Source: Liolophura sinensis
Taxonomy: Eukaryota; Mollusca; Polyplacophora; Chitonida; Chitonidae
Direction: 5' to 3'
Assembly (NCBI RefSeq): GCF_032854445.1
Contig: NC_088305.1
Location: 32,079,645 to 32,143,644 of the forward strand
DNA length: 64,000 nt
Under the pieces are notes generated by a model. It was not told the origin of the DNA. It saw nothing but the letters and a program-made list of their open reading frames with translations, and ran no database searches. Below are positions 38,270 through 63,792 of this stretch, one piece after another (the stretch's first letter is position 1; the number at the start of each line of letters is the position of its first letter). A program made the position numbers and the translations under genes.

Positions 38270-39046
38270 GCCATTTGGTTCAGTGATGAGTCCAGATTCC
38301 TATTGCAGAGACGTGATGGTAGAAACCGGGTTTACAGACGTGCTCACGAACGTTATGCCCCTAACTGCGTACGCCAAGTGGACAGATTTGGTGGAGGGAG
38401 TGTGATGATGTGGGCAGCAATATCGTATACTGGTCGTACAAATCTTGTCCACGTTCAGGGAAATCTTACGGCCGTATGCTACCGAGACACCATCCTGCAG
38501 CCACACCTCTTACCTGTCATTAACGTTCAGCGGGAGTTGTTCCAGCAGGACAACGCCAGACCGCACACGGCACGTGTCACAAGGGACTTCCTCGCCGAAA
38601 ACAATGTAAATGTGCTACCTTGGCCGTCCCGTTCCCCGGGTCTTAACCCAATTGAGCATCTGTGGGATGAACTTGATCGACGTCTACGCCAACGTCAACC
38701 TCAACCCCAAACGCTTCAAGAGCAAGTTGCATGTTTGCAGGAGGAGTGGCAGAACATTCCCCAGGCCTCTATCCAGCGTCTCATCCAGTCTATGACAAGG
38801 CGTGTCAGAACTGTTATTCGTGCCCGTGGTGGTCGCAACAGATACTGACATTCCACTCAAGTGGGAGACTCATTGTGAGTGTCTTACCTCAAGTTGATGG
38901 CCTTGTTGTCTAGATATGGACCCTTCCTTAATCTGTGTAAAAAAATATTTGCAGAATAGCAATTCTTATTTAGTTATGCATAATTGAAAAGACTGCATCA
39001 CCTCCGCAAAAAACCGGGTTATGCGTTTCTTTTTTTGGATAGTATA
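38270..39046 (+). mobile_element. Tc1-type transposon fragment (3' half)
   Basis: Begins at WFSDESRFLLQRRDGRNRV of a Tc1 transposase and remains open to the natural C-terminus (RGGRNRY, stop at 38846-38848). All three catalytic acids are in place (FSDES, QQDNARPH, NPIEHLWD). The HTH half and left terminus are absent. A right-end terminus is recognisable at about 39024-39046 (ATGCGTTTCTTTTTTTGGAT). It belongs to the same broad family as the 23.7-kb element but is clearly a different lineage. Confidence 0.85.
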
Positions 39047-39981: not shown

Positions 39982-40821
39982 ATGGACTCTAGACCCGCTG
40001 ATAGTGACCAGCAGTCCCGAACTCGTCCAGGGAGACCGGCGGAGGATGTAAGCTCGGCACTGAGTCCGCCTGCTCAGCCGGCAGGTGAACAGCCGAAATC
40101 TGGCGTGGAGACTAGCCCGAGAGCGCGAGCGGTAGAAGGCAGAATCTCCCGGCCCCTAGCCCTGGAGAACAGAGCGAAGGCTGGAAACAGGTTTCGCGAT
40201 CAGATCCTCCTTACGGCCTTCACTATGGCCACGTATTTCGCACTGGTAAGAATTAAACGCTACAAATTAGGTCGCCCCATTGACACATTTCCCTTAAATC
40301 ATTATTCAGGAGGAAGTAACTACACACAGCACGTATCACCCGCGGACTGGCTACTTATCTCCCCTGATTCATGGAACGTGTTTTCTGTTTGAATATAAGG
40401 TTTTGTGAAGATATGTTTTGTAAGATAATTCTAAAATATTATACTTGCCGACCGAAAGTTTTACAAATACCCCTGTTGTATGTTTTATATCCTATGTCCA
40501 GTTTTCGAGCAAGGGCTTCAATCACAAGGTAAGTCATTCCTACATGTCACATTTGGCAATCTTGATACATACCGATAACTTTTTTTTTCATTTAAATACT
40601 TCTGTACGTGGGAAGGTCTGTCAGCAACCTGCGGCTGTTCGTGGATCTCCCCCTGATACAACCCAATTTTCTGTAAGCATAATGCTGGCAGCGGAAGTAT
40701 AAGTGAAATATTCTTGAGTACATCGTAAAAGGCCAATCAACCAAATCAACAAATAAGAAGAAAGTATTTATTTATTTATTTGTTGGACTAGTGCTTTATT
40801 TACTGCCGAATATTTCGCTTG

Positions 40822-40903
<82 letters not shown>

Positions 40904-42619
40904 TCTCTCTCACACAGGGTCTAATGCCATCCCAGACCGGGGTGTCGTTCTTAGACTTGATTCAGAGCGTGGAGGCTGACATAAAGCAGGGCTCGCTGAT
41001 TTTCACGCTCGGTTCACTAGGATACATGATCGGGTCGATGGTTGGAGGATTTCTTCTGGACAAGTTTGACAAGGAACTGATATTTGGCACATGCGCACTG
41101 CTGGCTGGCCTACTCACAGTTACGGTTCCGTGGTGTAGATGGGTCGAACTGATGATTACGACAGTGTTTGTCAGAAGTCTTTTCACTGGAGCAATGGACT
41201 CGGGTAAATACACGTGTAAACAATTTCGCCTGCTTGATGCAAATTTTCTCATATTTATCTTGCCTCTTGGTGTATTTATTTGGTGAAGTACACTGCTACG
41301 TCGATTTGCTGCCTACGCTTTCTGCACCCTTTAACCTAATGCAGCACTCACAGGTTAGAGTGAAAAGAACAGGCCTGGATGCCCAGGTGTATTCACACTC
41401 ACAGAACAACTCCTCGTTCTCACACGACATAATTTTTTAAGTACGAAGTGAAACCTCCAAGCATACATACGTTCTTTAACTTAACGCTGTATATAGATTT
41501 AAGATCTTTGATTAAGTCAGTCAGTGATGTGTTCGCTTGGCGCCCAGCACTTAGAGGTTAAAGCAATGAAAGGGGATTTGTTGGTTCTGTATCTGGGCGT
41601 GATGTCATTTCTGGTGTGTTTGGCGTGATTCTTTTATTCCCGATGGGAGCAGTGCTCCCGAGTGTATTAGATGTGATATCAACACGGCATCAAACATGCC
41701 CTTGTTGACTGTAGACTTTGCCCATGTTTGGCAAAGGTTCTACACAGTCGACTCTTTCTTCCATTTATTTGACGGCATTGCTGGCGATGCTGTCATTAAA
41801 TATTTTGAGTTTATCCCATAATTTGCCCGTGTCTTCATGAAATGTGAAAAATAACAAAGGTTGGTGAAAGGAAATGAACTGGTCTGCAACTGATGTACCT
41901 CAACATTATTCTTAGATCTAGTCTGTTTGCCACATGGAACACGGTAATTGGTATCACTGAGACCATTTGATTCAACATCACGTCTACCATCACACGGAAA
42001 TCTCAAAATAGAACCAAAACCAAGCCTTTTGAAACATCGTAGACACCGTTTTGTTGCATTCCCCAAGTTCCATGTTGGTTAGTAAGACCAGCAAATAAGA
42101 GTTGAGGCGAATTGTTCGCGTTAAAAGCCTGTATTTGAATATTTCATTCAGTATGATTTTCAAAATCAGCGCTTCTCGAACACTGCAAGTCATCGTGTGA
42201 CGTCTTGGAAATATGACATAGATTTTAGGCCACAGTTTTGGTCCCAAATTTGTCGATAAATGATCAGTTATGAATACTGATATTTTCGAACAAAGCTCCT
42301 GGTCATATAACACACTAATGGATTGTGTTATGTTTTATGTTCAGCGATTTTCTCAATGTTTTCTAAAACTGTATTTAGTTAAATGTGTGGTTCAGCTCCA
42401 ACCGTTTCACATATATCGATATCAGTATGCATCTCATTTACATACTTGTCAAAACAAACAGACATTTTCTTCTCTAGCAACCACCTGTGATAAGTAGGAT
42501 ATACAATTCGTGACCCATTACATCAAATGTGTTAAACTCGTGGGGAAATTTCCCTTTCTTCGCCGCTAAAAGCTCGGAACAAATGAAAATTACACCACTC
42601 GTTTATATATACATATATA

Positions 42620-42650
<31 letters not shown>

Positions 42651-44114
42651 ATAGATGTGTGTATAAATATGTTATAAAATATTATGGTTGTGGACTTTTA
42701 ACTAAGATTTGGTCTTTTCAACTGGTATCAAACATGCCTGGCGGTTTTATTTTAGTTCGGATGTTCTCATCTCTCAGATTCCTGACTTAAATGTGTTAAA
42801 GTTAGGAATGGCTGAAATATTGCCGAGATGGCGTTAAACCATAATCATTCAATCGGCATGATGCTTCAGCGGTGGCAGCAGTTTGGCGGCACTGACTCGC
42901 CCTGCGTCTAGAAGACTCAGTACATGTGCACACATCTAATTACTCCTCGTCGTCATATGACTGAAAAATTAAGTACGACCTAAAACTCGAAGGATGCGCA
43001 CATGCAGTAATATGTGTTCTTATTCTGTCTTCGCCTAGGCGGAACTGTCATACTGCTGACGATCTGGGGAACAAAGGCAAATCCATACATGCAGGCACTC
43101 CACTTCACGTTCGCTCTGGGCGGAGTGTGCTCGCCGCTGCTCACCGAACCGTTTCTGATGCCACTTCCGGAAGAGAGTTCCATGCAGAACATAACGGAGA
43201 TTGGAGCGAACATCTCGTCTCACGGTATGAGTGTTTACACGGAGCCCGCCAGGTGGACTACACTGGATATCCGGTCATCTACAGGTCACGTAACATTAGC
43301 CAATTCGACCGATGTCGCAGCATTACCTTCACCGTTCACAGTATCCCGTGTCTACATACCACATATATTTGTGGGAGGGTACACTTTTCTTACCTCTGTG
43401 CCATTTTTCGTTATTTTTTTTATGCGGAGTGGAAAATCCTATGCCGTAACAGCGGCTGGGGCGGAAGCAGAACCCTCGGTAAAAACTGCAAAGCGTGCTC
43501 ATTCGCTGTATTTCATTCTGTTCGGGTTATTTTTCCTGGGATACGGCTGTACGGAGGAAGTGTACGCGGCATTTCTGATGCCGTACGTCGTCAAGTACTT
43601 ACCCTTGGAGAAGGGGCGAGGGGCGGGGGCGAACTCCGTGTACTGGGGGACTTTTGCTGCTGGTCGGTTCATCGCTATATTCATAGCCCGATTTGTCAAC
43701 GTGCGGAATATGATTCTCATGGATTTTGTTTTGATCGTTGTGGGACTTGTGGGTTTCCTTTTCGGCGCGAACAGATCCGATGTCGTCATCTGGATCAGCG
43801 ACGCTGTGATTGGCCTTGGTACGGCTTCCGTCTTCGCTTCTTCCGTGTCCTGGTTGGATCAGAATCTCACGAGAATCTCGGGGAAGCTGGCGGGATTTAT
43901 CGTCGTGTGCATGGCAGTGGGGACGATGTCCAACATGGCTCTGCTGGGCTATCTGTTTGAGATGGTCTCTGGGCAGTGGTTTGTTTACTTGATACTAGGT
44001 AACACTTCTGTCTCCTTGGGCATTTTCGTGCTGATGTCTTTTTTGCACTACTTCAGAGGAAGCAAACACACCCCACAAGATCTCCATGTAGAAATGACAT
44101 CGCCAGAGACTTAA
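39982..44114 (+). CDS. MFS transporter, MFSD4 / sodium-dependent glucose transporter 1-like (3 exons, 541 aa)
   Basis: Exons: 39982-40245 (phase 0 end, CTG|GTAAGA), 40918-41203 (CACACAG|GGT to G|GTAAAT), 43039-44114 (CGCCTAG|GC to TAA). The joined reading frame is 1626 nt, 541 residues, with no internal stop. Residues 1-70 are hydrophilic and probably cytosolic; TM1 begins in TAFTMATYFAL and continues across the first junction into GLMPSQTGVSFLDL. The loop GGFLLDKFDKE is an MFS loop-2/3 signature. Exon 3 holds MQALHFTFALGG and LTEPFL, diagnostic of the MFSD4/NaGLT1 group, plus a large extracellular loop and the C-terminal six helices (LFGLFFLGYGCTEEVYAAFL). The likely role is plasma-membrane sugar or related solute transport; the substrate is inferred from the family only. 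The ATG at 39982 has purines at -3 and +4; an in-frame ATG at 39955 has a weaker context. Confidence 0.88.
40598..40755 (+). mobile_element. SINE family 1 3' fragment in transporter intron 1
   Basis: Contains TACGTGGGAAGGTCTGTCAG and the core TGAAATATTCTTGAGTACAT with an AATCAAC-type tail. Decayed. Confidence 0.7.
40827..40900. repeat. (TA)37 microsatellite next to a 3' splice site
   Basis: 37 TA units end 17 bp before transporter exon 2; only TCTTCTCTCTCACACAG separates them. Confidence 0.97.
41560..41815 (+). mobile_element. Nimb-type LINE ORF2 C-terminal scrap in transporter intron 2
   Basis: CATCAAACATGCCCTTGTTG and TTCTACACAGTCGACTCTTT match the 20800-20870 region (IKHILVDC...). The segment GACGGCATTGCTGGCGATGC is shared with 39220. 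Confidence 0.6.
42600..42655. repeat. (TATA)n and (TG)n microsatellite
   Basis: A short TATATACATATATATG run passes into about 13 TG units. Confidence 0.9.
42660..42856 (+). mobile_element. Nimb-type LINE 3'-end fragment in transporter intron 2
   Basis: ACTAAGATTTGGTCTTTTCA and GGCTGAAATATTGCCGAGAT plus ATAATCATTCA match the 3' UTR and tail of the complete element. Confidence 0.7.
42940..42990 (+). mobile_element. SINE family 2 3'-core fragment
   Basis: CGTCGTCATATGACTGAAAA followed by TTAAGTACGACCTAAA is the 3' core of family 2 read in its sense direction. It sits just upstream of transporter exon 3. Confidence 0.55.
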
Positions 44115-46669: not shown

Positions 46670-49600
46670 TTATATAGGAGGAGGTAATCCACCGCCACCA
46701 ATACCATTGCCTTTATGTGACATCACTGCAACACAAAAAAAAAATAACATTAACTTGTATAGTGTTCCAGGCATTGCATTTACATAAACATTTTACATTA
46801 TGTAGTTATCCATTTCTTACAAATTAAGAAATTTCAGAAATATGGTTCGACAATGTCATATATTTGAATCTATCACTCATTATGTATACTTTAAAGCATA
46901 CATTGTCCAGGAAGATTTCTTTATTTTGGTGAATCGTGTTAGTGCAATGTGATACATGGCACGGATAATCGACCAACTCTGAACGTAATCATGGCGCTTA
47001 GGCAGTTAGGGGATTTCGTTGTCACACTAGTCTTGATTGTTCCAAACCACTTCCTTTTAGGACTGATTAATTCATTTGATTGGTGTTTTTACGCCGTACT
47101 TGCGTAGCGTCGTTTTGCTTGTGGAGATGGTAAACTCAGGATACTAACGTGTATTGTTTAAACGTGGAGACCACAGAGTAGATACACGTGTGGTTTAGAG
47201 GATACCTCTACGTAGATACACGCGTTGTTCAGAGGGAACCTCCACGCAAATACACGCGTTGTTCAGAGGGAACCTCCACGTAAATACACGTGTTGTTCAG
47301 AGGGAACCTCCACGTAAATACACGTGTTGTTCAGAGGGAACCTCCACGTAAATACACGTGTTGTTCAGAGGGAACCTCCACGTAAATACACGTGTTGTTC
47401 AGAGGGAACCTCCACGTAAATACACGTGTTGTTCAGAGGGAACCTCGACGTAAATACACGTGTTGTTCAGAGGGAACCTCCACGTAGATACACACGTTGT
47501 TCAGATGGGACCTCCACGTAGATACACGTGTTGTTCTGAGAAAACCTCCACGTAGATTCATGTGGTGTTCAGAGGAGACCTCATGACGGAAACACCTGTC
47601 CCGAAGGCAGAGACCTCATGACTGATGTACGTCGCGTAGGCAATGGACCTCATGATTGATACACGTATCGCGTAGGCAGAGACCTCATGATTTACACAAG
47701 TGTCAGGCATATGGACGTCATGACCGAGACACGTGTCGTGTAGGCATGAGAATGTCATGATCGAAACACCTGTCGCATAGGCAATGGGACGTCATGACCG
47801 AGACACGTGTCGTGTAGGCATGAGGACGTCATGACCGAGACACCTGTCGCATAGGCATGGGGACGTTATGAACGAGACACGTGCCGCGTAGGCATAGAGA
47901 CACGTGGGCAGGCAGCGTGCCGCGTAGGTATAGAGAAGTTGAGTGTTTAGATAAGGAGACCTCTCTTCCTTGTTATTTAGACACGTACGCTCAGGGTAGA
48001 TACACATGTTTAGAAAAGGAATCTTCAGGTCAGAGGCAGCCCTGAAAACCTCGAGAATAATACATACATTTCTACTGTCAGGGTTTGGCGAATTTGCTTG
48101 TATCTTCAAGGCCACAAATTTGTATGTAAACCGTGAAAATAACTCATTTGCTTTTCACATCCTAGAGTAGGATCTGACTGACCTTTTGTGGGACCTAGCA
48201 TTCAGTAAGTTTTAGTACTGTATGTTAGTAATTCACATAATGTCACATACTGAAACCACACGATTAAGGGTTTGGCTGGTCAAGTCGAGACGTCAAGAAA
48301 TAAAATCTTATCCCTTTGTCTTGAATTTACTCTTTTTAATAAATTTTCGGAAATCAAGAAAGCAATGTAGGGCGCAAGATTAAAAGTTCTTAGCAGAAAA
48401 CAGAAAGTCTAGATAGCCTCGATTGGGGATCAGAAGGTAGGCGAGGGTGTCAGCAATGTGGCCTCTACAGTAACAGTCTCACCTTTGAAAGCTGCTCTCC
48501 TACATATCTCCTCACCAGCCACAGAGAAGTGGGTGGACAGCAGTTTAGCGCAGTAGTCGTCAAAGGGTTCGCTAACCCACGCCGGAATGATCATTTCACA
48601 AAAATCCGCATTCTTTAGGGTCCAACCAAACGAGCAAGACGATGCTGTGAGGCAGAAATTGCAACAAATGAAAAAATGCAGCTTCGTGTAAAGTAAGAGT
48701 AATGGTGAAAGGGGTTTTGGGAAAAAAATAGTGTTCTGATTTGTGTTTCTCCGCGTACCGTGATTGGCTGGGTAATGTCAGTTGCCCCTGAAGGTTCCTC
48801 AACCATCTGGATGGGGTGGGGTGTGTGTGTGGGGGGGGGGGGGGGGGGAAAGGGGGGGGAGTTCAAATCCGGGCGTTAAAACTAACTAAAATTGCGCATA
48901 GCTTGACGTAAACTGCTATTGAAAAAAAAACAAATATAAGTAGAACTCTTTCATATACTAAAAACTAAGTGCCTTGGGCCTATATGGAGAGTGTTTATGA
49001 TTTAATTATGACCTCTGGTAAAATTTAACAAAGGTAAAATGGCTTCCTTCTGGTAGACTCTGACACGATACAAACAGCATTCTTAAGTTTTATTTACTTA
49101 TTTGACCGACTTCTGCTTTGGAATATGTGGACTGATATAACTGGTGATTTTATCATTTGTTTATATATTTGACAGTATGAAATGCTGACGACTTTTCTCC
49201 CTCGTCTATAACGTGCCACACTGATCAGCATAATGACTGAAGCCCCTGTAGTAAACCTAGGGACGTATCCCATGTACACAACAAGCCTCCTTACTTAAAT
49301 GCAAAGAAAACACTAAAATAAAGTATTTGTCAGATGAAAGACCTTTAAACTAAAATAAGTTGAATATTTCTTTAGAATTTTGCTGACCGACCAAAATGCA
49401 TTTAAAACATAGGATTCTATTGTGGCCTGTAGATAACCCAGAGGTTATCAGTGATTGTAGATAACCCAGAGGTTATCAGTGATGTCACAGCACTAGTCTT
49501 GATTTGAAATCGTTTCAAGGTCCATTTGCTGAATGCATTCATAGTTCTAAATGAAGATTCATAGTAAATGATGAGATATATCAATCTTTGTGTGTCAAGT

Positions 49601-52386
49601 GGCAAAAAATTAAAATGATATCACTGATCCCAGTATGGTCAGAAAAGGTTATAGTGGAATTCAAAGTTTTAAATGGATTTTACTAGGTCAAAAACTATTG
49701 TAAAAAAAAATTAAACTATTTTCCCGGACAATATTTAATAGTCTTTCATCTGACATGTACTTCATACCAGTGCGTTCTGGCCTCTAAAACCTCAGCTGTA
49801 CCAGCGATAAGCAAGTTAAAGCTCGCGACTTCAGCGGCCAGAGAACGATCTGATGCATGGAAAAGAACGTTACAGGTTATCGAGTCACTTCCAACTGTAC
49901 AGGATGGTAACATCTTGTGGATAGGAATGTAGTGTGCGGCATATAATTACCAGATCAGGTGTCCGTAAATAAATATGTATGTCGTCATGACCGAAGATAT
50001 TCATGGAAGTTAACGACAACAACAAAATTGCCGACTGGGATTATTGATATTGTGACTAGTCGCTACTCACACTTCAAGTCCGAAGAACATTATGAGTTAA
50101 AGGCGTAATCTACAGCAGAGAGAGTAAAACCAGAGCAGCGACGACAGTGTGATAGACGTACAGCATAGGGAGTAAAACCAGAGCAGCGACGACAGTGTGA
50201 TAGACGTACAGCATAGGGAGTAAAACCAGAGCAGCGACGACAGTGTGATAAACGTACAGCAGAGAGAGTAAAACCAGAGCAGCGATGACAGTGTGATAGA
50301 CGTACCACATATACAGTAAAACCAGAGGAGCGACAACAGTGTTACAGACGTGCAGCATAAAGAGTAAGACCAGAGCAGCGACGACAGTGTGATAAACGTA
50401 CAGCAGAGAGAGTAAAACCAGAGCAGCGACGACAGTGTGATAAACGTACAGCAGAGAGAGTAAAACCAGAGCAGCGGCGACATTGTGATAGACGTACAGC
50501 ATAGGGAGTAAAACCAGAGCAGCGACGACAGTGTGATAGACGTACAGCATAGGGAGTAAAACCAGAGCAGCGACGACACTGTAATAAACGTACAGCAGAG
50601 AGAGTAAAACCAGAGCAGCGACGACAGTGTAATAGACGTACAGCATAAGGAGTAAAACCAGAGCAGCGACAACAGTGTAATAGACGTACAGCATAGGGAG
50701 TAAAACCAGAGCATCGACGACAGTGTGATAAACGTACAGTATAGAGAGTAAAACCAGAGCATCGACGACAGTGTGATAAACGTACAGTATAGAGAGTAAA
50801 ACCAGAGCAGCGATGACAGTGTGATAAACGTACAGTATAGAGAGTAAAACCAGAGGAGCGACAACAGTGTTATAGACGTGCAGCATAAAGAGTAAGACCA
50901 GAGCAGCGACAACAGTGTGGTAGACGTACCGCATATAGAGTAAAACCAGAGCAGCGACGACAGTGTTATAGACGTACAGCATAGACAACAGTGTTTGGAT
51001 GAACAGCATAGGGAGTAAAAGCAGAGCAGCGACGACAGTGTGATAGACGTACCACATATACAGTAAAACCAGAGGAGCGACAACAGTGTTATAGACGTGC
51101 AGCATAAAGAGTAAAACCAGAGGAGTGACAACAGTGTTATAGACGTGCAGCATAAAGAGTAAAACGAGAGGAGCGACAACAGTGTGATAGACGTACCGCA
51201 TAGAGAGTAAAACCAAAGTAGCGATGGCAATGTGATAGCAAATGATTACACGTAACCGGTGTAAATGCTTAAATGATAGCAAATAACACGTCCCTATGAT
51301 GTTAACAGCAATTTATCAGACGTTAATGGTCTATGATGACTCGAAGCGCGGTGTTGCCGTCACATTTAACATACAATCACGTTAAAAACATTGCAAAAGG
51401 ACCAGGCCTTTTGCTGGATGCTTAGCCCACCAGCAGAATACTCGTTCATGCAGGGACGCATTAACACGTACACGTATGTATGTAGGCCTACACGTTTTAG
51501 CGATATAAAACTCTATTTAACCATATGCTTTCAGTCCATTTACTCCATGCGCCCTTCTTTCCTTCGCCGATAAAGCGTTATCGCAGTCATATAAGTAAAA
51601 AGCTTTTGAATACGGCGTTTAACACAAAACAGTTAATCAATTTAATGTGTGTCCCACAATATCACACTAAAAATTAAACACCCAAGGACGGTTCGATTTC
51701 CGGTAAGTTGTCTAATTCAACACCCCGTTCTCTGATGTAACACTTCCTTAACGACTATTAAAGAAAAATAGATTATAAGAATTGTCTTCGATTCAACGTG
51801 AATTTGGTTTATTGTGAGTACTAGATGTAACCGTTTTTGTTGTTAGTACCAGATGTACCATGTTTGTATTAGTACCAGATGTAACCGTCCTTTTTGTTAG
51901 CACTAGATGCAACCGTGTTTGTTGTAAGTACTAGATGTAACCCTGTTTGTTGTAAGGACTAATTGTTTGATGTAAGTGCTGGACGTAACCGTGTTTGTTG
52001 TAAGGACTAGGTGTTTGTTTTAAGTGCTGGATGTAAACGTGTTTGTTGCACGTACTAGATGTAACGGTGTTTGTTGTAAACATTAGATGTAACCGTGTTT
52101 GTTGTAAGGACTACATGTTTGTTGTAAATACTAGATGTAAACGTGTTCATTGCACGTACAGGATGTAAGGGTGTCTGCTTACCTTTCAGCTCTACCAGTG
52201 TTTGTTGTAAACATTAGATGTAACCGTGTTTGTTGTAAGGACTACATGTTTGTTGTAAATATAAGATGTAAACGTGTTCGTTGCACGTACAGGATGTAAG
52301 GGTGTCTGCTTACCTTTCAGCTCTACCAGAGGTATTTGCGTAAACAGGAGCGCCGCACACATAATGTATACACTTGATCGCATCAT
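46670..52386 (-). CDS. Small secreted Cys protein with C-terminal GGGGLPP motif, gene B (3 exons, 96 aa)
   Basis: Exons on the minus strand: 52386-52314 (ATG to AAAG|GTAAGC), 48644-48483 (TGCCTCACAG|CATC to AAAG|GTGAGA), 46725-46670 (TGTTGCAG|TGATG to TAA). Both introns are phase 1 and the joined frame has no stop. Residues 1-24 form a signal peptide (hydrophobic VYIMCAALLF), start chosen at the first of two adjacent ATGs. Mature Cys are at 28, 40, 56 and 72 (spacing x11, x15, x15). The tail is GNGIGGGGLPPPI. A TATA box and initiator lie upstream. The same exon plan, phases and GGGGLPP tail occur in gene A at 59.6 kb, on the other strand. The family is unrecognised and the function unknown; secretion is inferred from the signal peptide. 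Introns are 3.7 and 1.8 kb and filled with minisatellites. Confidence 0.75.
47071..47103 (-). mobile_element. SINE family 1 tail scrap
   Basis: ATTTGATTGGTGTTTTTACG and the start of the core only. Confidence 0.5.
47160..47580. repeat. 35-bp minisatellite with a CACGTG core, intron 2 of gene B
   Basis: About 11 units. Each carries TACACGTGTTGTTCAGAGGG or a close variant followed by AACCTCCACGTAAA. Most units contain the palindrome ACACGTGT (an E-box, CACGTG). Confidence 0.9.
47580..47935. repeat. ~38-bp imperfect minisatellite, intron 2 of gene B
   Basis: About nine drifted units of the form GACGTCATGACCGAGACACG plus TGTCGCGTAGGCATG. Different in sequence from the preceding array except for the ACACGTGT core present in several units. 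Confidence 0.8.
48815..48862. repeat. (TG)n/G-run tract in intron 1 of gene B
   Basis: TGTGTGTGTG followed by two long G runs on the plus strand (C runs in the gene's sense), about 170 bp before the exon 2 acceptor. Confidence 0.9.
48870..50100. other. Intron 1 of gene B, no other gene seen
   Basis: Contains a 27-bp direct duplication (GATAACCCAGAGGTTATCAG type, 49430-49482), itself holding a small palindrome. No coding similarity. Confidence 0.5.
50117..51215. repeat. 48-bp minisatellite, about 23 copies, intron 1 of gene B
   Basis: The unit contains AGTAAAACCAGAGCAGCGAC plus GACAGTGTGATAGACGTACA and GCATAGGG. The length is 16 codons, so long frames arise on the minus strand (repeating LLWFYSLCCTSITLSS). 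These are low-complexity artefacts rather than exons: no splice sites are placed to include them. Confidence 0.93.
51820..52067. repeat. ~28-bp imperfect tandem repeat
   Basis: Units of the form TAGATGTAACCGTGTTTGTT plus GTAAGTAC, several copies of uneven length. Confidence 0.75.
52068..52329. repeat. 131-bp tandem duplication covering the exon 1 splice donor of gene B
   Basis: Copies at 52068-52198 and 52199-52329 are nearly identical. The right copy contains the last 16 nt of exon 1 and the donor GTAAGC; the left copy therefore carries a second, identical exon end and donor (exon-side base at 52183). Confidence 0.9.
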
Positions 52387-52474
52387 ACTTGTTGGTCCGA
52401 CACGAAGAGCGACCAATAAGCCTATCGTGACCTATCGATAACACCACGCCGTAAGTCGCAGCTGGCCACTGTAC

Positions 52475-52507
52475 TGAAAACTTGCACCCGGCGGCCGAAC
52501 ATTTATA
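52475..52507 (-). promoter_or_regulatory. Core promoter of gene B (TATA box and initiator)
   Basis: On the minus strand TATAAAT at 52507-52501 is followed by TTTTCAGTAC with an initiator A at 52475, 32 nt downstream, the canonical spacing. This predicts an 89-nt 5' UTR before the ATG at 52386. Confidence 0.65.
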
Positions 52508-53324
52508 CATCCTGTTCACCCTATTCTCTGGTCTTCTTTAGATGCACGGCGGTGTGATAAGGCCAATTGAAGAGGTCATTTTGTGGCATGTCGAAGCTTA
52601 GTCCCTCCTTAAACACCATTGTCCTCGAGGGCACAATTGTATGCGAATTTTGCTCTGTACATGTATAATGTTTCACTGCGTAGGCTGGAACATCAATGGA
52701 ACGATTCAAGTGGATCGTGTTTTTGACGTATTTCGTTCACTAAATTTCAATAAAATTATGCACCGAGTGAGCGTTCATTCCTCAAAGTTAACATTTGAAA
52801 GCTTATCTTTAAGCGTCGTATACTATATCTTTGTACAAAATTCGGGCGGAGAAATTTCTCGTGACCTTATAGTCTAATAAGACAGACGACGAAATGTTCA
52901 AAAAGAAATGTCTTCGCACTAAGTTTTAGGAAGGTTACACTGAGCTTTTGGGCAACGATTTTTAGTTTTAAAAACACGGGGTATTTTTGGATAAAATAAG
53001 GCAAACAGCTTTTATTTACGGACATCATTTGTAAGTGATTCTTCACACAGCTGAAGCTTACCCTATAATAATTTCTACTACCACTGCTATGAAATCTTCA
53101 GCGATTTGGCTTTCAGTCCATTGATTAAAAAGTTAATCTTAGAAAAAAATCATAATAATGAATACTATAATATAAAATTGTGAATGATTTCATAAGTGGG
53201 ATATCTGTTTTCATGATTTGTTCGTGATAAATCGTCTGTATAGTTTCCTCGCTGGGAGGGCCAAGTGCTGGTCTATTACGTGTTAACATTTCTATATTCA
53301 TTTATTGATTTACTGATTTATTTA

Positions 53325-53500
53325 TTTATATACATGTGTTTACTGATTACTTTTTTGACGTCGTACTCAGAAAGTGTTACTTATATACGATGGCGACCAG
53401 CTTATGGCTTGAGGAAACATGAATGTCAGAAGTGAACCACTGACCATTGGCGATTAACTGACGAACCTACCCACGTATGACATACGCGTTATTGATTGAA
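53325..53500 (-). mobile_element. SINE family 1, decayed
   Basis: TTTGACGTCGTACTCAGAAA and ACTTATATACGATGGCGACC keep the core; the body is strongly drifted. Confidence 0.55.
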
Positions 53501-55849
53501 GGCGGGTAGTCTAGTTCATGATAGATCATACCAGAGAGCACCATCAACTACTTCTTGCCAAAGAAAATGAGTGATAACTATAAATATGTTCACATTAAGA
53601 TTGTCTTGTCATTAGAATAAAACGTCGTGAAATGACCAAATAAATAAGAGTAAAAATGACAAAGAAGGAGTTGTCCATTTCGAAAATTATCTCTGTTATA
53701 TGTTATATTTGCCATCTGATATAACAACCATGAAATGTAATTACTGACATCTCTCGAACACGACCGGTGAAGCAGTGGCAACGGTGTGGCCACTGACATA
53801 CAGACGCACCCATACTATGAAGCAGTGGCATGTGTAATGATTGACGTCTGGTCTTGCATAGCCGGTGCCTCACCGTCACCAGTTGCTGAAGGACTGTCAT
53901 TAGGAACACTATGAATAAGGAAAATCACATTTCCCCCATAATATAAATGTCCTCAGTATGGACGTGGAGAACAGTGCTGTTACGTCTCTGACGAAAGACA
54001 ATTTTGCCACATTCCACTTGTCATTAAATAGGATCTTCACTTTTGTCGCAAATCCCTACTATTTTCTCCGTTAGCAAAAAAACAAAAAAAACTACTAGTG
54101 TTACAAGGCCATCCAGAGATTTTGTTAAGCTACATAAGTGTTCAGCGATGCATGAATTCACAGCCCGTCTGCTTAATTTGTTTCCATCCGTTTGATGTAG
54201 TCGCACAGTTTGGTACCTGATATATTTGACTTACCAGTCAATAAATGTCTAATCCATTTGGCCTGTGTCCTCAGTTCTTCTTAAAGGAAGAGATCGCTAA
54301 AAGTTAAAGTACATGTAAGCGTCACTAGATAGACCACTTATAGAGGTCAGTAAATTAGTTTCACTGACTTGTTCTACATTTTTGTTCAAGAGAGAAGGCA
54401 ATCAAACGTATGAATTGTGTAAGGTGAGTTTAGGAACTCTGGCGTCATGGGAAGGTTTTCTAACTATAAACAAGGCGTTAAATGTAGTAATAAATATTTT
54501 TCCACCCGGGTAACAGATTCCTTTCTTCTGGTGAACTTAACAAGGAGATGTAACATTTGAATGTCTTTAACATTCTTCAAAGCATTAAAAAAATAAATGA
54601 CATTATTTTTGTGCATAATTTTCAGTTCTCATGAACCTTACCCTTATTTTAGTGGGAGAATCCAACGACATTTTACATTATAAATTGTTCCTTCAAATCA
54701 TATGAAGATTATACTTGGTAACTCATTCCCTAATAAAGTGTATTTGCCACGTGTGCTACTGTCATAATTTAACGATAAGAACACCACTAGTAGTTTCTCA
54801 TTTACTTCCCTTTCCTTCGTCACCTCGCGCGACATTAACCATTGGAAGACACGATCTGATTCACCGAGATGACCAATCTTACCTTTGGAGCAAAAAAGTT
54901 CATCAGCCCATCAGAATCCCCCCCCCCCCCCCCCCCACCACCACCATTAGGCTACTCTTACTTTAACCTACAGCCAATACAATCAATACTTGTAATTATG
55001 GAGATTCCTGGCACCTGTCAACTTGAAGATGAATCATATTGGTTTAGCAACTGGAAGAACGGGTCGGTGTGAACTCGCGCGCGATAAACGGCTGAACAGC
55101 TGTACGGACGGTACAAAGCCTGTCACATACCCGATTGTGCTGACGAAATTAGATTGAGTACTCTCACAATTACTATCTTTGATTTTCTACAGAAGTAAAG
55201 ACTTCGATATGCAAACTTTAGCAAATGTCTGGTGACGTCAAAATGTACGATATCTGAGCCACTAAGGAAAGCAAGTACTTCTGTCCGGATGTCCTCAATG
55301 GATTGACAGATTGATTCATTGGTCTATTGATTGTTTGATTGACATTAAAGAGACCTCCCTTTTTTCCCAGTGTTATTTTCTGTATTTCACCCCAGCCTGC
55401 AAATAGGCAAACTTACAAGCAAATAAAGGCCTGAAAATGCTATTTTTGAAGAAATTAAACCTCAAAAAACTTTTAGTGACCCTGTTAGGTGGATCAATCT
55501 GTCAATATCAAGTAAAACTTCAGGTGAATTACACTATGCACAAGTGCCATCGTAACACATATTAGGCCGCAGTGATAGATGTAGTAGCGATAAATATATC
55601 ATGTTAGTGTCAGAATCACCCATCGGCACAGGCATGGACAGATAGGGGTAGTAGAGATAAATACAACATCAGGCTAGGTCTCAGAATCGCATGAACAGAA
55701 AGGAAACATTTCATATTCGCAAACACTTGTTTTGTTACTTGAAATTAGCAACGATATCGCATTTATAACAACATAATAACATGACTTAAACGAAACAGTG
55801 TTACCCGAAATAACACTGTTCACTGGGAGTAAATGAGAATAATTGTATT

Positions 55850-55957
55850 TATTTATTTATTTGATTGGTGTTTTACGCCGTACTCAAGAATATTTCACTT
55901 ATACGACGGCGACCAGCGTTATGGTGGGTGGAAACCCACGACCATCTGCAGGTTGCA
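55850..55957 (-). mobile_element. SINE family 1, 3' part
   Basis: (ATTT)n tail, TGATTGGTGTTTTACGCCGT and core, then a body stub ending ATCTGCAGGTTGCAG. The head is absent. Confidence 0.85.
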
Positions 55958-56490
55958 GCCCTGTTTCAGAAACTGTCGTGTATGAAATTGTTTTAGTATT
56001 AGTATAATATAGCCTTATTAAATGAAATCTATCTGATCTCTTGTGGTTGTATGACCCCATGACAGTATGGCATCAGAATTCGATGTTATGAAATTCTGAA
56101 TACGAATACGACGTAGTCTTTTTGTGGAGATGGTAGTGTGGGCTCTGTGCGGAGTTCGTTCTAAACGCATGAGGCGCTTCTCTCCAAAATGCCACTGTTT
56201 TTTTTTTCTTCAAATAATTATGACATCATCCGAGGCAATGACTTGTTGGTGTGCAAAAAAAGGCATATGGAGTTATTTTATACATTATAAAGTTCTAATT
56301 GCATGGCAGTTCAAAGTACCAGTGCGTAGAGCTTGTTTTACGTGTCACTGACAAAGGCCAATTTTGGTTCAGAGTTGGACTGATTTTATAGATAGCCTAG
56401 ACGAAAATATAGACGACAATTTAATAGAAACAGTCTAGACATGTAGGCGCAATTATGTAATTGTAAGATGCTGATACCACACAAACACGC

Positions 56491-56595
56491 TGGGGGCCTC
56501 CATGGCTGGTGCGGCGCAATTCGCGGAAGCCTCTCACCAATACGGTAGCTATGAATTCAAGTTCAGCTCATGCTGGCTTCCCCTCCGGCTCTCAG
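56491..56595 (+). mobile_element. SINE family 1, 5' part
   Basis: GGGGGCCTCCATGGCTGGTG head through GCTCATGCTGGCTTCCCCTC. The 3' half is missing. Confidence 0.75.
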
Positions 56596-58220
56596 ATCAG
56601 AGGCATCTAATTTAACATGAGTGTGTTTTTTGTGTGTTATCTTATTCTGCGTGGATAATGGTGCCATGTAGGGTATCGACTTTTTTAATTATTTACACTA
56701 ACAGTTAAAATAAAATCTAAACTGAAGTAAACTGAGAAGAAGCCGGGTTTCGCCTGTTGGGTGTGACCACTTGCCAGCAATCACACTGTCGCTATTGCTT
56801 TGGTTTTACTCTCCATTCTTTAATCTTTTATATTTCATTATAAATAGGTTTAATCATATGGAAGATCGTGAATTTCTTCTTGTAGAAGCGCCAATGCTAG
56901 CCTAGTCTAGCTATGTCATGTTGTACGTCTGAGCCACTATATATACATTGCTATACGAATGTCATTGACACTGTAATCTTGTACCATTCATCTTGAAACC
57001 AGTGCTATGGGTATTAGATGAATATTGTCAACATTTTCCATCCCATCACTTTAAAAGAAGACCATTTTACGCGCATTGTATAATTGTATCTCTGTTGGAT
57101 GAACTCTAAGGATGAAAGAAGTGGGTATATTGTCGTCTAATGAACGGTAATGTCGTTTTGATGATTTATATGTTCACCGCTTTCTAGTTGTCCACTGAAG
57201 CGATAAGTCTCGACTTTGAGCTCTTTTTGCTCAGATTTCTTTGACTTTTATTCCCATTTTTTTACATAGGAGAATACACACACAAACCTTTTTTTTCGTA
57301 TAAGTCGTATTGGATAAAGAAATGAATGATGCGACGGAAAATATAAATCTAGAATGTATGCTGAATACATTGAGTATCTGATCATTCTCCTACACGGTAA
57401 AATCAAATAAATGGCGGCCAATCTTTGAGTACGTATGCATGATTAAAAAAAAACCCCAAAAAACAAAAACAAATATAATTAGAAATTTAGTTTAGTGTAG
57501 TTAATTAAATCATTCTTATGGAGGGCATATATGGATTAATTGCAGAGTTAATAACAGCGTGTACAACAGAACACGTGTGGGACATTACAAAAACTCAAAA
57601 TACCTGAAGCCGAAATACAACAGGCGTGTTAAGCAGAAATATGATAATACAAGGATCTAAAAGGCTGCATAAAATAACTGGGTGGTTTAAAGGACACAGT
57701 TAAAGGTAACACATGCGCAATTCGGGAAATTGGGTGCAAGATTTGCCTCTAAACTCAAGAGTGAAGGAGCACTGATTGGATAATACTGCCAAACAGACAT
57801 TGTAGGTTGTTTATACGCTATAAATTTCTACACTGGTGTTTTGCACCTAGTTAAAATATATCAGAATTTTGTCTGCTTCGGATAGAACTGACAACTTTTT
57901 GCCCAGCAAAACTTAGATGATATATATTTTGGAGGTTGAAGTGGACAAAATTTATTACATAAATAATAAGGAAATCAGTGCGTTGGTATCAACTATAAAC
58001 ACAGGTATCAAAATGGATGTGTAGCGTTACTGAAAGGGGTTTCATTAGACTAAGGATATCTTAACCTGAATTACCGTGACACCGTTGTCAAAGAAGATAA
58101 ATTATAGCGCTGAAAGGAAACTAATAATAATTGCACTTTAAAAGGTATTTAATATTTCATTACACTGAAATGATGTGAGGAATGTTACCATTATCATTTA
58201 TATACATTAAACTGTAGAGA

Positions 58221-58485
58221 TTTATTTATTTATTTGATTGATGTTTTACTCCTTACTCAAGAATATTTCACATATACGACGGCTGCCAGCATTAGGTGGG
58301 ATGAAGCCGAACAGAGCCCGGGGAAAAACCACGATCATCCGCAGGTTGATCTTCCCACGTACGGCCGGAGAGGAAGCCAGCATGAGCTGGACTTGAACAA
58401 AACAGCTAAACAAAAACGCATTGGTGAGAGGCTCCTTGGTCATTACGCTGCGCTAGAGCGCGTACCAACTGAGCCACGGAGGCCC
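58221..58485 (-). mobile_element. SINE family 1, full length with target duplication
   Basis: Tail to head (GAGCCACGGAGGCCC). Flanked by TAAACTGTAGAGA (58208-58220) and TAAACCGTAGAGA (58487-58499), a 13-bp duplication with one mismatch. Confidence 0.92.
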
Positions 58486-58968
58486 TTAAACCGTAGAGAC
58501 AAGTTGAAATTCAGCAGCCCATCAATTAGGCATGGAAGCAGTTGCCTGCACTGCTGTTTTAAACTGTGAATGATGCGTAAACTCGATGACGGATGTTGCA
58601 GAAATATTGTTAAACACAGACTGACGTGGAACAGGCCTTTCCTGACCAAAACTCGACAGAATGGAGGATAAAACAGATGTTTGGATTTAGATGAGCGGAA
58701 ACATAAGCCAAAGGCAATCTGGAGAATTACATAATACAGGTTATTGCACTATGTGCACAGCTGTGTAAAGGCATGTCAAAATGTTTACGTCCGGTGTCCA
58801 ATATTGGCAGATTGAACTGTTTACATAGATTCGTGAACATAGCAGTGAACGTAATGGTGATATGCATGTTGGATACAGAAGGTTTAAAGAACAAGAATTT
58901 AATGAGTTCGGACGCCGGCGTCATATAATACACACTCTAAGCGTTTTCGAAGTAGGCCAATGTACAAG

Positions 58969-59083
58969 TTATTTATTTATTTATTTATTTATTTATATAT
59001 TTATTTCATTGGTATCTCGTGCCGTTCTCAAGAATACTTCACTTATACAAAGGCGGCCAGCATTACGGTTGGAGGAAACAAAT
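58969..59083 (-). mobile_element. SINE family 1, 3' part
   Basis: Long (TTTA)n tail, core CGTTCTCAAGAATACTTCAC and the start of the body. Confidence 0.75.
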
Positions 59084-59560
59084 GTAAAAGCATCACTAGG
59101 CACTTACATATACGTTGTTGGCAGTACATTCGTTTACATATTCCTCACATTTTAAAGGCGGTCTTAACTACCTTTAGTAAATGCTTGTCTTTGCTGACTG
59201 TCGTTGATTATTGGCATCTTCTCTGCTTTCGAACGGCTTCCAATCTGCTAAATGGAATCACCCAAGATTAATTCAAACATGAAACTTTCTTTTCACCTGT
59301 AAATGGCATAGGGATTCATTTTAAATGTGTTTAATTAAGCGTGCAACTCCTGCAAAAATACGTCTCTGATCGACAAGGTTTTGAACTTATCTGCAAGCCA
59401 GCATCAGGCAGGATAATAAACCCACGGGGTTTCTTTGAAGCCTTTGAACGTTGTGTTATCGTTTCGGTGTCATTAGCTTGATCCTCGGATAATCTGAGGA
59501 TTGATTTGACACAACCTGTTACATCTATTCCTATAGCCGGTTCTTTTGTCAAGGCTGGCT

Positions 59561-59568
59561 TATATATA
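59561..59568 (+). promoter_or_regulatory. TATA box of gene A
   Basis: TATATATA 75 nt before the ATG at 59636. A start about 30-40 nt downstream would give a 5' UTR of roughly 35-45 nt. Confidence 0.55.
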
Positions 59569-59635
59569 CTGTTGTAGTAATTTGCTTGTGGAACACATCT
59601 CACAAGGCAGTTGTCGAAACATCAGGACCGTCAAC

Positions 59636-62600
59636 ATGGCTCCTCTCAAATTTTGTATTGCCTTACTTCTACTGGTCCCTCTTAGCCTAGGTAAGTTTTT
59701 GCGCCTGCGTCCAGCTTATTTGTGTTATGTTTGTACTACAGTTAAAAAAGTGCTTTGAAAATGTAGAAAAAGGTTGAAATGACAATTTCACTTACATTGT
59801 GGTGATTTTCCCTTCAATATAGACGTGGTAGAACGTCGTAGAACGGAAATATTCTGGAGTATGGTGTTAGAATATCCAATTCCAAAAAGAAATAAACATT
59901 GTTTTCTTGGCTGTCATTGGTTTACATGTATCTAAATATGTAAAATATATGTGCGCCACCCTGCCCGAATAAACACGATGGATCGTATACGACATGTTCC
60001 TTTTTTCTTAAGTTTAGTAACTTTATCTTAGGTTTCCGAATAGATGAAAAGGTTTTTACCTGGGCGGAAACAGTTCACTCGTGGGAAGTGAAAACATTTC
60101 TACCCAGATCGAAACATTTTCACGCGGGTGGAAACTCACCAGTAACAGCCAGTTTAAGGGTTCGGTTACGTACAGAAAATAGCAAAATTTACGGGGACAC
60201 TGTATCGGAAGATACTCGTTCTTTCTATGTGAAGTCTTTCTGCGTCATCTTCAGTTTACGGCCTGGGAAGCAAAAACTAGGTTTCACCCAGATGGGAACC
60301 TTTTCACCCAGTTGGATACCTTTTCACCCAGGTGAGAACTGTTATGATACAGGTAAAAACCTTTTCGCCCTGGTGAAAACATAATAAATAGTTACAAAAC
60401 TAAAAAAATTATGTGTCATACGTGAGCCACCGTAATTAAAATCTACAAACTTAATCTGGATTCGTATACCTTCAATAAGCCATGCCCAATGCAGATAGAC
60501 TAAGTACCCGCGTTGTCACACTCCTCTTACGTCAACTAGCACACAAATATTACAGTAAAGGTTCATCTAAAACTCCATACTTTATATTTTCTTTTTCCGG
60601 ATTCAGACTGCAAAGCAGCATATGCAGTGCCAGCAGACACTGTAACGGCATTAGCTAAGCCATCTATAACTTCATAACTATGAAGTAAGTGTTGTGTATT
60701 GTATGCGCGGGTGTGTGTGGACGTCAGCTCTAACCGTGATGCATAGGTTGCTGCGGTGACAGGTGGGGGACACGACCGTCTATTGTCAGTGCTATACAGA
60801 TCCCACCCCCGTCATAATCCCCTCGGTATCGATGCTGGACGTTGTATGATTTATGTAGCAAAGACACGACCGCAGCTTCAGCGAGAGCAATCGATTATAC
60901 GAGTTCTCATTCTACATCAAAAGAAACCTTTAACGTGACATGGTTGCTCAAAATTTGGATTTGTAAACATATTCTGATTGCGACGTCTTAACAAGGTTAA
61001 ATCTCTCACGTTAAAATAAAAATATCCATTGAGTATGTACCTTGCACGAGCCCGGAGAAGTCCTGCCGTTGTTAGAATTCAACAGGAAGACGACGGGCCG
61101 TTTTGCCTCATTAGCATCCAACCGGAACGGGCCGAGGCATATGCGCAGCGTTCGGAAATTTGCTGTCAAAGCAAACATGTCAAGTGAGGTATGTGTGGGT
61201 GACAGAAACATCGGCAGTGTGATCTTTCCTACTCAATCGATATTGTTCCATCTAAGTATTATACCGAAGATATACATATTGTACCATAACCGACATGCAA
61301 TAAAAATAGGAAGCTTGGCTAAAATTGCTACTTATAATAGAGTTTTAAGGCCAAGCGCAGTTGTCCAAGACGTAAGCTGCAGGTAAGTGGCAAACTCAAC
61401 AAGCATTAGCTAAGCAACATCTTCGTGAGACCCTTTTCTTTCTTGAATGTTCTCCAGTGTTCAAACTGACCACCAGTTACAACTCCAGACTTGCTCGTCA
61501 ACCCGTGGAGCTCTTTTTTACGCCTCATTTTGACCGACCCTGTCACGAGCGAGCTGTATGTCCTTCTTTCACGTGTGTAATCAGTCATGTTTGCTTCCAT
61601 TCGAAGTTCACCGAGCGCTGTGCGCATGCTCCATTTCCACTGAATTGACAGCGCCTCATTTAAATATTCTGGCAGTTTTCTCATTTTTTGTCATTTTAAA
61701 CATTCATTTAACGTACAATGCTTCATGAAACCGGTCTCTGGTCCGTTGAATTACAAACTGATGCTGCACAAGTGAAGTTTACTTGAGTTTGTTGTAATCA
61801 ATAAAAGAAATATCAATCAAATATATAAGTAAATAACAATCATTTTTTGTCATACAGGAGCGGAGATTGCCAGCATACGTGTTCTTGGCTGTCCCGAGAC
61901 CTGCACGGACACCTTCCCACTAGAGGAGCTGATGTGCGCAATAACCACCCAGACGAGGGACCCCCAAGCATTCTGTGACACGGTGATCACAGGGGCACGA
62001 TATACCGTGCTTAGTCGCATCAACATCTGCCAGTGGACAGAGCGTAAGTCAGCGCAGAAGTTTTTATATCTGTCATTATCTCTATCTCTGATTAACGGTC
62101 ATTATTTCGTGAGATCAACATCTTCAAAAGAGAGTCACGGCGTTAACTGAGTATCTGCATTTAATCATTTTGATGATTAAAATAGCGAGTATGTACATTG
62201 GACGTGTATGAACACTAAATAGAAAATGAAAACTGGTACAGCTTGAGCGGAACAAACTAAATAGTAACAATTTAAATACCCAAATAAATACAATTTGGGA
62301 AAGAAATGTTTTCACAGAGGTCATGTCTCTGGAACAGATGTTACACAAGGCCCAAGTAGAGGCATACGCCGTTACACCTCAAGCCGTGGTTTAATTGGTA
62401 TGTGATCACACATAACGATTGACTTCCACTGAGGGTGGAGGAGTAGTTGTTTTCCTTCTTAAGAGTTTTATTAAATAAATACTCGCAAAGGATCTAAAAT
62501 TTAAAGAGGTTTACAACCTTTGTGTTATTAATATTTCTGACGCTCGCAAGAAAATGCCTAATGTTATTCTGAATTGTTCGGCCATACTTCTAGGTAAGAG

Positions 62601-63665
62601 TGACCTGCAAGTTTGGTCCATCAGTATATCACAATTACATTTAAGCTCAAAAACCATGACTTTTTTGGTCCACGGCAGGTCCAAATTTTAATAAACATCT
62701 TATGTCTAGTTTATGGCAGTAGTATAGTGATGATAACTGACTGATTGTATTGAGTAACATGGAAAGTGAGCGAGGGAAAGGCATGTTCATGGTCATGGTG
62801 TCGCAAGTTGAAAGTATTTCTGTGACCTATATTAACATCAGTTACAGTAATAGTTATATGTGACCTGTTTCCATCAGTTACAGTAACAGTAATGCGTGTC
62901 CTGTTATCACCAGATACAGTAACAGTAACGTGTGACCTGTTACCATCGGCTACAGTAACAGTAATTTGTGACCTGTTACCATCAGTTACAGTAATAATTA
63001 TGTGTGACATGTTGCCATCATTTACAGTAACAGTAATATGTAACCTGTTACCACCAGTTACGGTAATAGTTATATGTGACCTGTTACCACCAGTTACAGT
63101 AACAGTAATGTGTGACCTGTTACCATCAGTTACAGTAACAGTAATGTGTGACCTATTACCTCCAGTTACAGTAACAGTAATGTGTGACCTGTTACCTCCA
63201 GTTACAGTAATAGTAATGTGTGACCTGTTACTATCAATTTCAGTAACAGCAATGTGTGACCTTTTACCAACAGTTACATTAACAATTATGTGTGACCTGT
63301 TATCACCAGTTACAGTAACAGTAATCTGTGACTGTTACCATCCATTTCAGTACCAGTAGTGTGTGACCTTTTACCACCAGTAACATCGAGCAGTGAGTTC
63401 GGTGAAGTTCGAACAAAACATTCAACACAATATTCGGCAGAGTACAGCGGCAGTGCAGCGGCAGCTACGAATATGGAGTTGAACGGTGTGTTGGGATCTT
63501 CTGCTAACCTCACCGAGCTCCAGGTTCCACAGTCTCGCGCGCTAGTCTGCTTTGACGTCATGTGGAATCACAGTAACACCTAAACTGTTTGATTTTTGTT
63601 CCCCAGGTCACGTGGCTGCCTCTGGGGGAGGCCGATGCATGGGTGGAGGGGGATTACCCCCGTGA
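59636..63665 (+). CDS. Small secreted Cys protein with C-terminal GGGGLPP motif, gene A (3 exons, 99 aa)
   Basis: Exons: 59636-59690 (CTAG|GTAAGT), 61858-62043 (GTCATACAG|GAGCGG to GAGC|GTAAGT), 63607-63665 (CCCCAG|GTCACG to TGA). Introns are both phase 1 and the joined frame is open. Residues 1-19 are a classic signal peptide (FCIALLLLVPLSLG, cleavage before AEIA). Mature Cys are at 30, 34, 45, 58, 76 and 91; the run 34-45-58-76 (x10, x12, x17) parallels the four Cys of gene B. The end GGGRCMGGGGLPP parallels GNGIGGGGLPPPI. The extra pair C30/C91 could bond. The stretch DPQAFCDTVITGARY faintly recalls the start of a TIMP/NTR domain, but the protein is too short for one. The family is unrecognised and the function unknown. 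Confidence 0.8.
60050..60385. repeat. Imperfect ~23-bp repeat in intron 1 of gene A
   Basis: Repeated motif CTTTTCACCCAGNTGGNAAC (N variable), about eight drifted copies, clearest at 60287-60385. Confidence 0.6.
61090..61645. repeat. Diverged inverted repeat in intron 1 of gene A
   Basis: About 50 bp near 61139-61190 (ATGCGCAGCGTTCGG, AAGCAAACATG) recurs in reverse complement at about 61585-61635 (GCGCACAGCGCTCGG, AAGCAAACATG). Could be ends of an old foldback or MITE. Confidence 0.35.
62826..63385. repeat. 36-bp minisatellite, about 15 copies, intron 2 of gene A
   Basis: The unit contains CAGTTACAGTAACAGTAATG plus TGTGACCTGTTACCAC. Length is a multiple of three, which opens frames on both strands; it is not coding. 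Confidence 0.93.
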
Positions 63666-63786: not shown

Positions 63787-63792
63787 AATAAA
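63787..63792 (+). terminator. Polyadenylation signal of gene A
   Basis: AATAAA 122 nt after the stop codon in exon 3, the first canonical signal downstream. Confidence 0.55.

Follow-up and report, generated by a model that had tools for sequence, protein, structure and literature searches.

The genome of the chiton Liolophura sinensis contains at least five genes that very probably form one paralogous family and encode small, putatively secreted proteins of a common design: a hydrophobic leader exon, a core exon with four spaced cysteines, and a short, separately encoded tail that carries the residues G-G-L-P near its C terminus. Two of these genes, A and B, are located in the 64,000-nucleotide stretch of DNA analyzed here (hereafter, the window), and the other three, C, C' and D, are located on the same chromosome 13.6 Mb away. 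The species appears as Liolophura japonica in the paper describing the assembly (PMC11068029), which also provides RNA-seq data from digestive gland, foot, gill, gonad and heart, and was renamed L. sinensis in a later correction paper (PMC12441733).

Gene A (59636-63665, plus strand), its exons read from the window, is a complete three-exon model of 99 aa. The first exon (59636..59690) encodes the leader MAPLKFCIALLLLVPLSLG and ends in phase 1 at a GTAAGT donor, the second (61858..62043, phase 1-1) encodes the Cys core, with protein Cys at 30, 34, 45, 58 and 76, and the third (63607..63665, stop included) encodes the tail HVAASGGGRCMGGGGLPP. The mature protein has six cysteines: to the common four, spaced x10/x12/x17, are added C30 and C91, a pair with one member 5' of the core and the other in the tail. 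A TATA-box-like TATATATA is found at 59561..59568 on the plus strand, about 70 bases 5' of the ATG, and an AATAAA resembling a poly(A) signal at 63787..63792 on the same strand, 121 bases 3' of the stop.

Gene B (46670-52386, minus strand) is likewise a complete three-exon model, of 96 aa with four cysteines after the leader. Its exon 1 (52314..52386) encodes the leader MMRSSVYIMCAALLFTQIPLVELK and ends in phase 1 at a GTAAGC donor, exon 2 (48483..48644, phase 1-1) the Cys core with spacing x11/x15/x15, and exon 3 (46670..46725) the tail VMSHKGNGIGGGGLPPPI and the stop, all on the minus strand. A TATA-box-like TATAAAT is present at 52501..52507 (minus), about 115 bases 5' of the ATG, with a TCAGT about 30 bases further on; neither AATAAA nor ATTAAA occurs in the roughly 670 bases 3' of the stop. 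All four junctions of the two genes are GT-AG, and every intron is in phase 1. The first-pass annotation of this DNA had described A and B in just these terms, as three-exon genes with phases 1/1, products of 99 and 96 aa and the cysteine spacings given above, and all of this was confirmed at base level. Two details required correction: the tail end GGGGLPP that it assigned to both proteins is that of A, whereas B ends in GGGGLPPPI, and the four cysteines that it listed as common do occur at those spacings, but in a mature A that has six in total, compared with four in B.

Several other features of this DNA were recorded in passing. A 131-base unit present in two copies (97%) at 52067-52329 overlaps the end of gene B exon 1, and the last 16 bases of that exon are duplicated together with the splice donor in the intron, at 52183-52198. 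The introns of B and A hold long tandem arrays (50111-51238, 47178-47582 and 62832-63385, with units of 48, 34 and 36 bases). Elsewhere in the window, open frames at 40792-44114 resemble by eye a multi-pass membrane transporter; for the frame at 43047-44114, Pfam gave nothing at E up to 0.001. Pieces of transposable elements are found at 1124-4728, 24561-25070, 36920-37306 and 38270-38848, and comprise a LINE-like endonuclease with zf-RVT, a reverse transcriptase piece and two DDE transposase pieces.

A and B had been presented as two divergent paralogues, but by themselves they fail as proof of a family. In shuffle tests, their middle exons aligned no better than shuffled sequence (global z 0.41, local z 0.24, with z from 0.05 to 0.57 over the tests), and the z of about 5 obtained with the tail included is owed to the low-complexity tail itself. 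The chance-level alignment of the cores would suit a reading in which A and B are unrelated, or are not genes at all, and merely have a low-complexity tail in common; in tblastn searches, chance G-rich stretches indeed score about as well as the tail does. Because the A and B middle exons align at shuffle level, any relationship between the two has to be carried by further members.

Such members were found by way of the tail. The genome searched comprises 609,464,459 bases in 632 contigs, and the window lies on contig C11. Codons specifying GGGG-(L/F)-PP occur at 21 genomic places, versus 8 for the reversed pattern, and one of these, C11:18490369, was judged by eye to be the sole match besides A and B with the look of a short terminal exon behind a phase 1 acceptor. 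This tail led to gene C independently of its core, and a four-Cys phase 1-1 exon is located some 1 kb 5' of it. With the leader exon found further upstream, the model of gene C has exons at C11 18487009-18487087, 18489167-18489349 and 18490343-18490419 and encodes 112 aa. A genome-wide search with the C core returned itself, gene C' (18471571-18471649, 18473517-18473699 and 18474336-18474412), which is a 97% copy of C, and gene D (18480609-18480540, 18479225-18479040 and 18478178-18478123; E = 3.7e-5), a 36% relative on the strand opposite to C. The D core in turn recovered C at E 7.3e-6 and C' at 7.6e-5, together with one place on contig C13 at E 0.79 that we examined and judged to be a chance match. 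The B core recovered B alone; as it missed even C, relatives at the distance of B from C are beyond the reach of such a search. These genome-wide core searches covered B, C and D, and closer relatives of A may exist.

All three additional genes share the plan of A and B. Outside this genome, no relative was found. Phase played no part in locating the core exon of any of the five genes or the last exon of C or C'. For the tail exon of D and the first exons of C, C' and D, the search itself required phase 1, and their phases are therefore no independent evidence. Exon 1 of gene C was not recovered by a stricter scan, and the tail exon of D was chosen from 25 listed candidates by its acceptor and its Gly/Pro content. 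The tails end in GGGGLPPPPPPPPPGL in C, GAGGLPPPPPPPPPGL in C' and LNGGLPGR in D. As in A, the stop of C is followed by an AATAAA, in this case after 128 bases, and an ATTAAA follows the stops of C' and D after 128 and 147 bases. The two loci are also alike in arrangement: at each, a minus-strand gene is followed head to head by a plus-strand gene, with B and A 7.2 kb apart and D and C 6.4 kb apart.

We measured relatedness among the cores in pair tests with the cysteines fixed in place, using 2000 shuffles per pair and counting those that reached the real local and global scores. Not one shuffle did so for C-D or for C-B by either score, and the local and global counts were 16 and 3 for D-B, 5 and 6 for D-A, 287 and 13 for C-A, and 867 and 571 for B-A. 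The C core compared with B gave z between 4.5 and 5.9, both with and without the cysteines held fixed. In profile tests (4000 Cys-fixed shuffles each) with core and tail combined, no shuffle reached the score of B against C, C' and D, of C against B and A, or of D against C, C' and B, and 14 reached that of D against B and A. Gene A scored above all 4000 shuffles against the other four members, by a narrow margin (15.6 bits versus 14.7 for the best shuffle); against B, C and C', with D left out, 11 shuffles did as well. With the core only, the counts were 1 for B against C, C' and D, none for D against C, C' and B, 143 for C against B and A, 68 for D against B and A, and 51 for A against the four-member profile, rising to 559 for A against the profile of B, C and C'.

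Judged by these comparisons, the grouping of B, C, C' and D into one family is solid, and the case for A, which depends on D, the tail and the common plan, is weaker; we nevertheless regard A as a likely member. The earlier claim of a pair of paralogues thus gives way to at least five genes, with B firmly placed beside C, C' and D, and A less so. That A and B share nothing beyond a low-complexity tail is now very improbable, and for B it is largely refuted: the link of A to the others through D, tail and plan alone would still suit that reading, but C, C' and D tie the family together, firmly in the case of B and moderately in that of A.

The agreement between A and B also goes beyond chance. 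We scanned 224 kb including the window for phase 1-1 exons with a loose Cys pattern and good acceptor and donor signals, and obtained three exons, namely those of A and B and one dissimilar exon; the same DNA reversed gave none, which further argues against a chance origin. The same scan of the 21 kb cluster gave three exons, those of C, C' and D. The dissimilar exon (C11:32221850, window-relative +142206) has four cysteines and good splice signals, and starts with DRVKRRSCREG. By shuffles it has no similarity to the family and was rejected as a member, and none of the 12 top-scoring candidates for a short last exon within roughly the next 9 kb has a tail of the family type; possibly it belongs to another small secreted protein gene. 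A tblastn search, which also fails to align A with B, identified no third copy in these 224 kb. As for the tail, a six-frame scan of the window for GGG-x-[LIVM]-PP matched nowhere but in the two last exons. A looser pattern, GxGG(L/F)PP, has 79 matches genome-wide versus 40 reversed. Of its 22 new Leu-codon matches, 19 were inspected by eye, the other three belonging to one repeat array on contig C10, and none of the 19 had the appearance of a short terminal exon preceded by an acceptor in phase 1.

Across the five models, three coding exons with both introns in phase 1 are found in every case, as is a four-Cys core spaced x10-12 / x12-15 / x15-17 (counted by hand). A hydrophobic leader exon is likewise present in all five, identified by eye in A and B and by a hydropathy scan in C, C' and D, with that of B the least typical. 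The number of cysteines after the leader is even in all five proteins. Beyond the cysteines, the cores of B, C, C' and D are alike, and that of A shows a weaker likeness, to D only. After the core exon come 18 to 25 residues consisting of Gly, Pro and polar residues. Cysteines aside, what the five proteins chiefly have in common is the G-G-L-P of the C-terminal tail, which aligns throughout, the tail exon of D having been picked partly by its Gly/Pro content. Its conservation in all five suggests that the tail end is a working part of the protein. In AlphaFold2 models of single cores, B has three helices at a mean pLDDT of 59.7 and A has two at 41.9, values too low to support a fold, and the cores are perhaps helical.

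The family is apparently undescribed, as far as searches of Pfam, NCBIfam, the PDB, a large protein collection and the literature go. NCBIfam gave no matches for A and B, PDB sequences gave none beyond chance (best E 0.82 to 1.5), and a collection of 5.8 billion proteins, with molluscan coverage unquantified, gave none at E 10, the candidates scored numbering 4 for A, 1 for B and 2631 for the five-member alignment. The tail strings were not found in the literature searched. With three more genes of the same plan found, the first-pass suggestion of an apparently undescribed family with a single exon plan, old or fast evolving, is supported. The closest likeness that we considered is to the receptor activity-modifying proteins (RAMPs), Pfam PF04901, which also combine a signal peptide, four or six cysteines, roughly similar first Cys spacings and a helical structure. 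Unlike RAMPs, the family proteins have no transmembrane segment after the core, and have the Gly/Pro tail in its place. Profile searches did not bear the resemblance out: no Pfam family matched any of the five proteins at E up to 10, a range in which the HMMER filters drop most matches above ~0.1. More generally, taxonomically restricted small secreted Cys proteins often combine a leader exon with a single Cys-rich exon, have introns in phase 1 and occur as clustered divergent copies; the present family differs from this pattern in its separate last exon, which encodes the conserved G-G-L-P end and prolines in varying number.

The near-identical pair C and C' offers a view of more recent change. 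They differ at 12 of 339 coding bases, with 8 replacement differences (251 sites) and 4 silent ones (85 sites), for an uncorrected replacement/silent ratio of ~0.7. By hand count from the codons, 3 of the 183 bases of the middle exon are changed and 7 of the 77 bases of the last exon; 5 of these 7 changes count as replacements, all of them 5' of the L-P. The glycine linker differs between the two copies and GGLPP is unchanged; the longer aligned genomic blocks, exons included, are ~4 to 10% different outside gaps. From few differences, the pattern suggests a core that is held and a linker that is loose. The first-pass annotation likened the pair to host-defence, venom or reproductive peptides, which is a guess; for host-defence or reproductive proteins under rapid change, the very low identity among clustered paralogues with a fixed Cys plan would fit, as would the 8 replacement differences against 4 silent. 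We nonetheless consider this reading doubtful: 12 differences in one pair are no test, the ratio of ~0.7 is below 1, and the 5 replacements in the linker, out of 8, may simply reflect that looseness.

For the function of these proteins we propose, at roughly even odds, that they are secreted disulfide-core proteins with a glycine hinge and a Leu-Pro docking tip that act as a ligand or inhibitor. The leader exon would direct secretion of a small protein, the four-Cys core would probably fold into helices that two disulfides hold together as a compact head, and the glycine stretch of the separately encoded tail would serve as a flexible hinge. The exposed Leu-Pro(-Pro) end, which in C and C' includes a run of nine prolines, could then form an extended tip that docks on an extracellular partner, with the whole acting as a secreted ligand or inhibitor. 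We infer expression, secretion, disulfides, helical core and docking tip alike, and hold the assignment of the tail as a docking tip more tentatively than the proposal as a whole.

Under a different scheme, the protein would be a precursor: its Cys core would serve as a spacer or binding module, and its tail would be released by cleavage as a linear peptide of its own. Directly 5' of the tail, at the same aligned place, are RPAR in C and C' and RKAR in D, and under the motif rules for convertase cleavage and amidation, a furin-like cut there would free a Gly/Pro peptide of ~19 to 25 residues; the tail has its own exon, and the LPGR end of D could be trimmed and amidated. We think this unlikely, given that R-x-A-R is present in three of the five, with A having only ER and B an RR further upstream, that the extra Cys pair of A might tie its tail to the core, and that the tail ends of A, B and C have no amidation signal.

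Gly- and Pro-rich tails are also well suited to matrix proteins, and the family could instead be structural, a secreted component of the mucus, the cuticle, the shell plates or the radula in which the Gly/Pro tail cross-links or packs with other matrix proteins. The chiton radular teeth matrix protein 1 (RTMP1), described as a protein of 539 aa with Gly/Ser repeats and W/F- and H-rich regions, is comparable in being a secreted chiton protein without known relatives and with a glycine-rich part (PMC6351634). The same description (PMC6351634) sets RTMP1 apart from the family in length and composition. The family proteins are short and have a single tail, and a matrix role seems to us improbable.

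If our preferred reading of a hinged, secreted ligand or inhibitor is extended further, the family might represent chiton- or mollusc-restricted ligands, with a disulfide head and a hinged Leu-Pro tip, whose polyproline docking signals would form a new extracellular class; the tip would be tuned among paralogues, with LPG or LPP at one end of the range and nine prolines at the other. We regard both the restricted ligand class and the tuning of its tip as long shots. Small restricted secreted proteins of this kind are easily overlooked, with short exons, few common core residues and empty standard searches. The handle that led to at least five genes here was the conserved tail exon and not the core, and a separately encoded G-G-L-P tail with a variable number of prolines is a concrete and testable design.
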